DNA of 64,000 bases, from the NCBI GenBank assembly GCA_026003195.1, contig BPGU01000002.1, forward strand, positions 930,001 through 994,000, given 5' to 3'. The notes beneath the pieces were generated by a model. It ran no database searches and was not told where the DNA came from. It worked only from the letters and a program-made list of their open reading frames with translations. The DNA comes from Armatimonadota bacterium (GTDB lineage Bacteria; Armatimonadota; HRBIN16). Numbering within the stretch: the first letter of the stretch is position 1; each line of letters begins with the position of its first letter. Below are positions 25,675 to 30,643 of the stretch, in pieces. The translations under genes and the position numbers were made by a program.

Positions 25675-25704
25675 AACATCCCGCCGGAGAACCGGCGGGA
25701 TGTT
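25675..25704. terminator. Bidirectional terminator between the coaD operon and clpC
   Basis: AACATCCCGCCGG, loop AGAA, CCGGCGGGATGTT: a perfect 13-bp stem with a tetraloop. On the plus strand it is followed by TCGCTTTGTGTTT and on the minus strand by TTGTTCGCAC. Placed between convergent genes. Confidence 0.85.
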
Positions 25705-25714
25705 CGCTTTGTGT

Positions 25715-28201
<2,487 letters not shown>

Positions 28202-28352: not shown

Positions 28353-29729
28353 CTATCCGTTGCGCACTTGCCGCACCAGTGTTCGCATCCTGATGGCACG
28401 CCATTCGGCGTCGTCGTGCTGCCCTTCCCAGCGTATGGCCATCATCATCTCCTTCCAGACCTCAGGGGTCAAACGTCCCCAGCCCGCCATCGCGGCAAGG
28501 CTCACGACCGACAGCATCTGCAAGGCATCTGCGGCTCTCAAGGTGCGTTCCTTTGCAAGATTATGATACACCTGTTCTGCCTCTTCGTGCAACTGTCGCG
28601 TCTGAGAAGGCAACCATTGCTCTCGCGCACGCTGTTCCGCCTGGGCAATAAACTGCGCGGTGCCCGCTACCTGTGCAGCGAGGGTCGCCTCGTCGATACC
28701 GATACTATGTGTGTTGGACACCTGAAACAGCGCGCCGGCAGGTGTTCCCTCACCGTACGGTCCACGGATGGTGCCTCCCAGCTCTGCGGCTGCTTGCCAC
28801 ACGGTGTGTAACTGTCCCATTCGCTCCAGAGCAGGTGTGTACATCATCACCGAGACACGCAGCCCCCACCCGATGTTGAGAATGGAAGCGGTCAACCACC
28901 CGTAATTGTCGGAGAAAGCCAGTTCTTCTTGCAGTGCCAGTGCATCCAGGGCAGCGCGCGCCAGCACGATACTCTCGCGTACTTGCAACCCAGGCAGGAT
29001 AGCCTGTACCCGCAGGTGGTCCTCCTCGTTCACCAGCACGCTGACAGCGCGCGCTTCGTCCACGATCAACGCACCGAGGGGATTATCACGCAGCAGAGGG
29101 CTGGCGAGGCGCAGGTCTATCCACCGCTGTCTTTCCGAGGGCTTCATGCGGTGTGTCGGCAGGATGGCGAAATGCCAGGAGCTAAGGCGCGCTGCCCGAT
29201 CCACACGGTACCGTACCTGTTCCAGATCCGCACTATCGGCACACCAGGGAAAACGCGCCCAGGCGAAGTTGCGGGCATAGCGGGCACGGCTGCTGAGAAT
29301 CACCTGCTGAGGCTGCAGGGGATGGAGCCAGAAAGCATCCGGCTGCGTACTCGCTTGCCGTACCGTCGGAGGCTGCACGATCTCCGGCAGGAGGTCTCCT
29401 TCGTGGCGGGTCGGCAGCGACCACTGCTTCAGCCATTGTTCCACCGCTTGCGGAAAGTGCCGGTAGCAATCGACGCAGCCCGCCACTCCTTGCTCGGCGA
29501 GCATGCCGATCTCCGTCGCGCAGTGAGGACAGGCGATCTTTTCCGAAAGTGGCTGTGCTGCCGCTTGCAGTAGCGCAGAATACACCGGAGCCTCTTCGGG
29601 GACGAGCCTCGCCAGATATCGGCGGGCGCATGGCGCACACAACAGTCGGCGGTGGCTGTCGGCATGCACCCGCCACTGCGCGGCAAATCGCCCACAAACC
29701 TCGCACCGTTGCTCAGACAGGCGTGCCAC
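28353..29729 (-). CDS. mcsB: McsA-McsB fusion: zinc-finger activator joined to protein arginine kinase domain
   Basis: A 458-residue protein. The first 90 residues carry four CxxC pairs (9/12, 31/34, 67/70, 85/88) as in the zinc-finger protein McsA. From about residue 140 the phosphagen-kinase fold of McsB follows: VILSSRARYARNF (143-155), VNEEDHLR (233-240), GTIRGPYGEGTPAGALFQVS (319-338). McsB phosphorylates arginines on proteins to mark them for ClpC-ClpP, and McsA activates it. In other bacteria they are separate genes. The segment that normally reads ACPTNxGTG is here ASILNIGWG (281-289), so the conserved Cys is gone. It lies between ilvE, which it overlaps by 17 bases at its GTG start, and clpC. 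No ctsR gene is seen. Confidence 0.85.
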   Translation of the reverse strand: MARLSEQRCEVCGRFAAQWRVHADSHRRLLCAPCARRYLARLVPEEAPVYSALLQAAAQPLSEKIACPHCATEIGMLAEQGVAGCVDCYRHFPQAVEQWLKQWSLPTRHEGDLLPEIVQPPTVRQASTQPDAFWLHPLQPQQVILSSRARYARNFAWARFPWCADSADLEQVRYRVDRAARLSSWHFAILPTHRMKPSERQRWIDLRLASPLLRDNPLGALIVDEARAVSVLVNEEDHLRVQAILPGLQVRESIVLARAALDALALQEELAFSDNYGWLTASILNIGWGLRVSVMMYTPALERMGQLHTVWQAAAELGGTIRGPYGEGTPAGALFQVSNTHSIGIDEATLAAQVAGTAQFIAQAEQRAREQWLPSQTRQLHEEAEQVYHNLAKERTLRAADALQMLSVVSLAAMAGWGRLTPEVWKEMMMAIRWEGQHDDAEWRAIRMRTLVRQVRNG

Positions 29730-30588
29730 TGCTCTGGGTGTGTTCTCGGAACGCCGCGATGATGCGATGTGTCACCTCACCGGGCTTGCCCGTGCCAATG
29801 GGGCGCTCGTCCAGTGTCACCATCGGTATGACTTCGGCAGCGGTACCCGTGAGGAACGCTTCGTCGGCGGTATACACGTCGTACAGGGTCATCATGGTCT
29901 CGCGCACAGGAATGCCTCTCTGCTCTGCCAGCATCATCACAGTAGCGCGCGTGATGCCCGCCAGAATGCCTGCGGAAGATGGCGGCGTGTGCAAAACACC
30001 GTTCTTCACGATAAAGATGTTATCGCCGGTGGCTTCTGCCACAAAACCTTCGATGTTCAGCATCAGCCCTTCGCCTGCGCCCACCCGGTTCGCTTCCATC
30101 TTCGCCAGGATGTTGTTGATATATCGTCCCAGCGACTTGATGCGCGGGTCCAGACACTGCGCGGGCGGGATACGAGTGGAAACGGTCACCACGTGCAAGC
30201 CGTTCTCGTACATCTCCGGCGGATAGAGCGCGAGGTCGGCAGTGGAGATGGCAATGGTCGGCTCCAGGCGGATATGTTTGGGATCCAAGCCCAGCCCAAC
30301 GCCTCGCGAAACGGTCACCCGAATGTAACAGTTCGTTTCGCCATTCTCACGCACCACCGACCGGATGCGCTCGGTCATCTCCCCTTTGCTGATGGGGATG
30401 CCAATCATCAACGCACGGGCGCTGTGATACAGGCGATCCACGTGTTCCTGCAGCTTAAAGATGCGTCCATTGTAAACGCGGATGCCCTCAAAAACGCCGT
30501 CGCCGTACAGAAAACCGTGATCGTACAGGTCGATCTTTGCCTCGGCGGGCGAGACCATCTGTCCGTTCAAGTTCACGAAGCGTCGCAT
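29713..30588 (-). CDS. ilvE: Branched-chain amino acid aminotransferase, class IV
   Basis: A 291-residue fold-type IV PLP enzyme. The PLP lysine is Lys 151 in RIKSLGRYINNILAK, with VAEATGDNIFIVKNG near 195 and the phosphate-binding GILAGITRATVM near 220. The order YGDGVFEGIRVYNG at the N-terminus fits branched-chain aminotransferases more than D-amino acid transaminases or aminodeoxychorismate lyase. It transfers the amino group of glutamate to branched-chain 2-oxo acids. ATG at 30588 follows CAGGAGGGGAAGGGA. A strong promoter lies at 30614-30643. Its 3' end overlaps the mcsAB start by 17 bases, so a biosynthetic gene leads the protein quality-control genes in one transcript. Confidence 0.9.
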   Translation of the reverse strand: MRRFVNLNGQMVSPAEAKIDLYDHGFLYGDGVFEGIRVYNGRIFKLQEHVDRLYHSARALMIGIPISKGEMTERIRSVVRENGETNCYIRVTVSRGVGLGLDPKHIRLEPTIAISTADLALYPPEMYENGLHVVTVSTRIPPAQCLDPRIKSLGRYINNILAKMEANRVGAGEGLMLNIEGFVAEATGDNIFIVKNGVLHTPPSSAGILAGITRATVMMLAEQRGIPVRETMMTLYDVYTADEAFLTGTAAEVIPMVTLDERPIGTGKPGEVTHRIIAAFREHTQSSGTPV

Positions 30589-30613: not shown

Positions 30614-30643
30614 AGTATAACGCGGAGGTGGGGAAAGCGTCAA
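30614..30643 (-). promoter_or_regulatory. Sigma-70-like promoter of ilvE-mcsAB-clpC
   Basis: Minus strand TTGACG (30643-30638), 18 bases, TATACT (30619-30614), about 26 bases before the ilvE start. The GTG at 30628, in frame with lnt on the other strand, lies inside this promoter, which argues against the longer lnt start. Confidence 0.7.

Follow-up and report, generated by a model that had tools for sequence, protein, structure and literature searches.

Locus and gene context

The window analysed here, a stretch of 64,000 nucleotides that spans positions 930001-994000 of contig C2 in a 4.58 Mb Armatimonadota genome, carries a gene, mcsAB, whose 458 codons form a single reading frame with no internal stops. 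The gene lies between an ilvE-type aminotransferase gene and clpC (Table 1), the product of which retains both TEHLLLG segments of the ClpC N-domain, and ClpP is also present in the genome. A 13-bp hairpin at window positions 25675-25704, just beyond the clpC stop codon (25715), may mark the end of an ilvE-mcsAB-clpC transcript.

Table 1. Coordinates of features in the window and, where a locus identifier is given, in other loci.
Feature	Position	Strand	Remarks
Possible promoter upstream of ilvE	30614..30643	(-)	consensus match only; 2 found against 0.9 expected
ilvE-type aminotransferase	29713..30588	(-)	upstream; 17-base overlap with mcsAB start
mcsAB, fused McsA-McsB	28353..29729	(-)	intact ORF, 458 aa, GTG start
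McsA zinc finger 1 (C9, C12, C31, C34)	29628..29705	(-)	invariant in genus and in separate McsAs
McsA zinc finger 2 (C67, C70, C85, C88)	29466..29531	(-)	hhalign to separate McsAs
Linker, residues 116-133	29331..29384	(-)	variable; low model confidence; without UVR motif
McsB phosphotransferase domain, residues 134-367	28629..29330	(-)	PF00217; PDB McsB by sequence and fold
NEEDHLR, residues 234-240; E236 (AK Glu225), R240 (AK Arg229)	29010..29030	(-)	invariant in genus; kept in Cys-less kin
ASILN in place of (A/S)CPTN; Ser282 at Cys position, Asn285 (AK Asn274) kept	28875..28889	(-)	
RGPYGEG, residues 322-328; R322 (AK Arg309), E327 (AK Glu314)	28746..28766	(-)	RGxYGEG kept
McsB C-terminal (dimerisation) domain, residues 347-458, helical	28356..28691	(-)	model; fold match to whole McsB chains
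RAIRMR where the phospho-arginine receptor motif RDxxRA would stand	28383..28400	(-)	
clpC, Hsp100 unfoldase	25715..28201	(-)	151 bases 3' of mcsAB; adjoining in genus
Short McsAs of family f7	L012 2484-2699; L018 1236-1436; L021 2474-2674; L022 2441-2665; L131 2736-2951; L132 2363-2569; L020 1232-1477		
McsA-McsB fusion of the comparison phylum	L216 1387-2979		same as L236 1713-3305

A first-pass annotation had correctly listed the ilvE and clpC neighbours and the lack of ctsR, and had regarded the combination as unusual. Across the phylum, ilvE lies directly upstream in most of the mcsB loci read and clpC lies downstream of mcsB in many, while CtsR, absent from this genome, was found in none of the 291 genomes of the phylum, in a search whose control recovered it in Lactococcus. 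An ilvE-mcsA-mcsB-clpC order without ctsR is the ordinary arrangement of the phylum, and neither feature sets this locus apart. A search of the genus for a YwlE-type phosphatase was likewise negative; the sole homologue there of low-molecular-weight protein tyrosine phosphatases (LMW-PTP; L049, G000:C2:201619-202002) is ArsC-like and carries CTGNSCRS, which rules out this match as a YwlE phosphatase.

One chain combines McsA and McsB

Residues 1-116 were assigned to an McsA-type double zinc finger and residues 134-458 to an McsB-type protein-arginine kinase. The kinase part matched Pfam PF00217 (E 1e-34), two NCBIfam McsB models (E 2e-54 and 2e-52, both under the curated cut-offs) and, in a sequence search of the PDB, McsB 6fh1 (E 5e-43). 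When an AlphaFold model of the chain (mean pLDDT 85.5, with the kinase part mostly at 86-98 per ten-residue block and the McsA part at modest confidence) was used in a fold search, McsB chains came first (6tv6, 6fh3, 8wtc), and by both sequence and fold ranking the protein groups with McsB, not with the animal phosphagen kinases.

The N-terminus matched the McsA model NF053706 weakly (E 7e-4, residues 56-111). Profile comparison with the separate McsAs of the phylum, using hhalign, gave a probability of 99 and an E value of 8e-18 over 112 columns, and those separate McsAs in turn match solved McsA (8wtb_B, E 5e-21; 8gqd_E, E 3e-12). All eight Cys residues of the N-terminus, which form four CxxC pairs (C9/C12, C31/C34, C67/C70 and C85/C88), have the same placement as in the separate McsAs, with McsA-type spacing, and zinc finger 2 is the equivalent of the finger that touches McsB in solved complexes (8wtb_B, 8gqd_E; PMC12467219). 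McsA and McsB rows were aligned separately, as a joint MAFFT alignment misplaced the McsAs. When the McsA part was submitted to fold search by itself, McsA 8wtc_B ranked first without reaching significance (E 0.96), so the McsA identity rests on the sequence profiles. The UVR motif (PF02151) was not found in the fusion, nor in L013, a separate McsA of the phylum. At the level of sequence comparison, these matches confirm that the chain is a natural fusion of an N-terminal McsA with a C-terminal McsB, as the first-pass annotation had claimed.

The full-length fusion is present in nine of the ten genomes of the genus, at 66-83% identity, the tenth being an assembly of 470 contigs that is 89% complete. 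No other family of the phylum yielded it, in a set of 291 species genomes; outside the genus, the available kin are no closer than phylum level. Across the nine fusions the GTG start is identical, the four CxxC pairs that had been noted in the first 90 residues are invariant, and the median pairwise dN/dS is about 0.12 for the kinase and 0.22 for the McsA part. The gene is thus under strong purifying selection. Phylum relatives carry separate, often overlapping mcsA and mcsB genes, from which a decaying or mis-assembled pair, joined by error, might be imagined. One full-length frame shared by nine genomes, the strength of the selection and a linker without a conserved internal start make this exceedingly improbable, and we regard a frameshift or assembly error as ruled out as the source of the fusion. 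Since no in-frame start codon within the linker is common to all nine fusions, a separate kinase product is also unlikely.

The active site lacks the CPTN cysteine and retains the other catalytic residues

Seven catalytic residues were checked, namely the equivalents of R124, R126, E225, R229, R280, R309 and E314 of arginine kinase (AK). All seven, comprising the catalytic Glu pair and the arginine cage, are present in the fusion, and every catalytic position other than the Cys is invariant in the nine genomes, as is Asn285. The Cys of the CPTN motif is absent: as first reported, ASILNIGWG stands where ACPTNxGTG would be expected, while NEEDHLR and YGEG are kept. All nine fusions have Ser282 at the Cys position, and the Thr at 288 is replaced by Trp in the genus. 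Losses of checked catalytic residues beyond the Cys, the mark by which a pseudokinase was judged, were not found in the fusion.

In S. aureus, Cys157 has been called catalytically essential, with McsA acting by orienting it (PMC12467219). For arginine kinase, the guanidinium of the substrate is hydrogen-bonded and polarised by three groups, the Cys thiolate, Glu225 and Glu314 (PMC11075012), and Cys mutants of the enzyme are called 'partially active' in the title of a paper, Gattis 2004, that PMC12467219 and PMC11075012 both cite. To judge from that title, the literature does not make the Cys an absolute need.

Loss of the cysteine is widespread and precedes the fusion

Across 20 families of the phylum, the position was read in 73 McsB-type kinases, with Ser in 61, His in 5, Asp in 1 and Cys in 6. 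Thus 67 of the 73 are Cys-less, and 58 of those 67 are unfused. The Cys is kept in all 80 named relatives taken from genome contigs (Bacillota and one Latescibacterota), and 35 more Bacillota sequences, taken from a 398-genome search, all have it too. Nor is the Cys-less form confined to degraded genes: 65 of the 67 Cys-less kinases have all seven checked residues, and the remaining two come from ORFs with a truncated N-terminus. The Asn285 position (AK Asn274) is likewise invariant.

A quick tree, built without the CPTN loop, united 59 Cys-less rows from 12 families, the fusion included, in one clade (SH-aLRT 100), and the fewest changes between Cys and non-Cys on this tree is two. The fusion family sits at the end of a long kinase branch (1.05), and its exact sister is unsettled on this tree. 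As read from the tree, the loss of the Cys precedes the fusion and goes back to an ancestor of most of the phylum, with the fusion coming last, in this genus. The 58 unfused Cys-less McsBs and this order of events rule out the loss of CPTN as specific to the fusion. In the first-pass proposal of a self-activated kinase with changed chemistry, 'self-activated' is a fair reading of the sequence, whereas the link between the missing CPTN and the fusion does not hold.

A different pattern was seen in a comparison phylum, reached via a record named Latescibacterota: of its five full-length Cys-less rows, three have lost further catalytic residues, and a sixth locus is broken. Loss of several residues in this manner has the look of decay and is absent from the phylum of the fusion. 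The comparison phylum holds the McsB-like L230, L238 and L239, in which several catalytic residues are lost and which are likely, from their sequences, to be true pseudokinases.

Receptor motif and McsA tail are lost alongside the cysteine

In Bacillus McsB, Arg337, Asp338 and Arg341 form a phospho-arginine receptor that lies behind auto-activation and oligomer assembly (PMC8370763). The corresponding RDxxRA motif was found in 74 of the 80 Cys-type comparison sequences, in four of the six Cys-type kinases of the phylum and in four of the 67 Cys-less ones (Fisher p 9e-4 for RDxxRA against Cys within the phylum, relatedness ignored). The four Cys-less kinases that retain it belong to families f12 and f25 and fall outside the 59-row clade, which fits a loss of the Cys before that of the receptor.

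The separate McsAs vary in a similar way. In the Cys-type families f2, f3 and f5, McsA is 182-398 aa long with a UVR-like tail (PF02151 E 5e-6 in L036), while in most Cys-less families it measures about 120 aa and has no UVR tail. In family f7 it is only 67-82 aa long and consists of zinc finger 2 alone. The f7 protein may be a natural minimal activator, and its reduction points to finger 2 as the indispensable part. As these sequences are distributed, the receptor and the McsA UVR tail disappear along with the Cys. No McsA was found beside mcsB in the f16 and f6 loci read. The f16 proteins (L146, L147, L155-L161) are McsB-type with Ser at the Cys position and have neither mcsA nor clpC adjacent; some of their ORFs, at 500-576 aa, carry an N-terminal extension.

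A proposed function for mcsAB

We propose that the product of mcsAB is probably a working protein-arginine kinase that would operate without a thiolate, permanently activated by its own McsA part, and would feed ClpC-ClpP. With the activator built into the single chain, zinc finger 2 would pack on the loop that precedes Ser282 (residues 274-281), as Bacillota McsA does in trans, and this docking would hold the kinase permanently in its activated form. Phosphoryl transfer would be carried out by Glu236, Glu327, Asn285 and the arginine cage, with Ser282 standing in for the Cys and hydrogen-bonding the substrate guanidinium less strongly, and the tagged proteins would pass to the neighbouring ClpC and then to ClpP. 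An active kinase is favoured because the Cys is one of three polarising groups and because Cys mutants are, in the wording of the Gattis title, 'partially active'. Against it we count the description of Cys157 as essential (PMC12467219), the negative search of the genus for a YwlE-type phosphatase, the absence of CtsR (the classic substrate), the long branch (1.05) and the modest model confidence of the McsA part.

Several of these points would sit comfortably with a protein that does not phosphorylate at all, and whose zinc fingers and inactive kinase fold instead bind substrates and pass them to ClpC: the Cys that McsA positions is gone, as is the phospho-arginine receptor, no YwlE-like phosphatase was found in the genus, and CtsR is absent. 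Such a kinase-dead adaptor, which the first-pass annotation had offered as its second option, is disfavoured by the strong purifying selection and by the two catalytic glutamates and five checked arginines, which are invariant in the genus and present in 65 of the 67 Cys-less relatives; where decay is seen elsewhere, as in three of the five Cys-less rows of the comparison phylum, other catalytic residues have gone too. We therefore consider the adaptor possible, though rather unlikely and less probable than an active kinase.

It is also conceivable that the kinase has changed its substrate and acts on free guanidino compounds or on another residue, not on protein arginine. The pocket may have changed, given that position 282 is Ser, His or Asp depending on the family and that Trp replaces Thr at 288. 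However, the whole McsB architecture is kept, including the C-terminal domain, together with the adjacency to clpC, and McsA has been retained and even fused, which makes a change of substrate improbable.

Extending the reading of an active kinase beyond the genus, we think it somewhat likely that the protein-arginine kinases of most of the phylum form a subclass of their own, which would lack both the thiolate (with Ser, His or Asp in its place) and the phospho-arginine feedback receptor and would rely on a stripped-down McsA, one genus having taken McsA into the kinase chain. With McsA and all checked catalytic residues except the Cys retained, this large natural group amounts to a ready experiment on the role of this residue and, as the Cys has been described as the residue that McsA positions, on what McsA really activates. 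If it is indeed permanently activated, a one-chain arginine kinase would also offer a simple means of studying arginine phosphorylation and targeted protein degradation.

Comparison with known systems and a second fusion

With McsB of known structure (PDB 6fh1-6fh3, 6tv6, 8gqd, 8wtb) the fusion shares the kinase and C-terminal domains, the catalytic arginines, both glutamates and the clpC neighbour; it differs in the Ser for the CPTN Cys, in RAIRMR for RDxxRA, in its position behind McsA and in scoring under the curated cut-offs. With McsA (8wtb_B, 8gqd_E) it shares two four-Cys zinc fingers and the GCxxCY...H.G ending, but it is joined covalently to the kinase and lacks the UVR tail, a motif that Bacillota McsA carries. 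The separate mcsA-mcsB pairs of the phylum have the same Cys-less kinase, UVR-less McsA and ilvE-mcsA-mcsB-clpC order, and differ in being two genes. The ctsR-first arrangement of the CtsR-McsA-McsB-ClpC operon does not occur in this genome. Animal arginine and creatine kinases have the PF00217 catalytic fold and its residues in common with the fusion. They keep the Cys, possess an N-terminal domain but not the C-terminal domain of McsB, and act on free guanidino substrates.

In the literature searched, which lay mostly outside subscription papers, we found no McsA-McsB fusion, no McsB C167S, and no paper on McsB or arginine kinase that dealt with Armatimonadetes or Armatimonadota. A second fusion was present in the comparison phylum (L216, genome G692): a single ORF of 531 aa with McsA at residues 3-119 and the kinase at 190-529. 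Like the fusion in the window, it is one chain with McsA first and the kinase second, but it retains the UVR motif (PF02151 E 4e-8) and an intact CPTN. Judged by these sequences, it is of independent origin, and McsA-McsB fusion has arisen at least twice. Two origins support a functional benefit of tethering, and a fused protein with CPTN intact indicates that fusion is separable from loss of the Cys.
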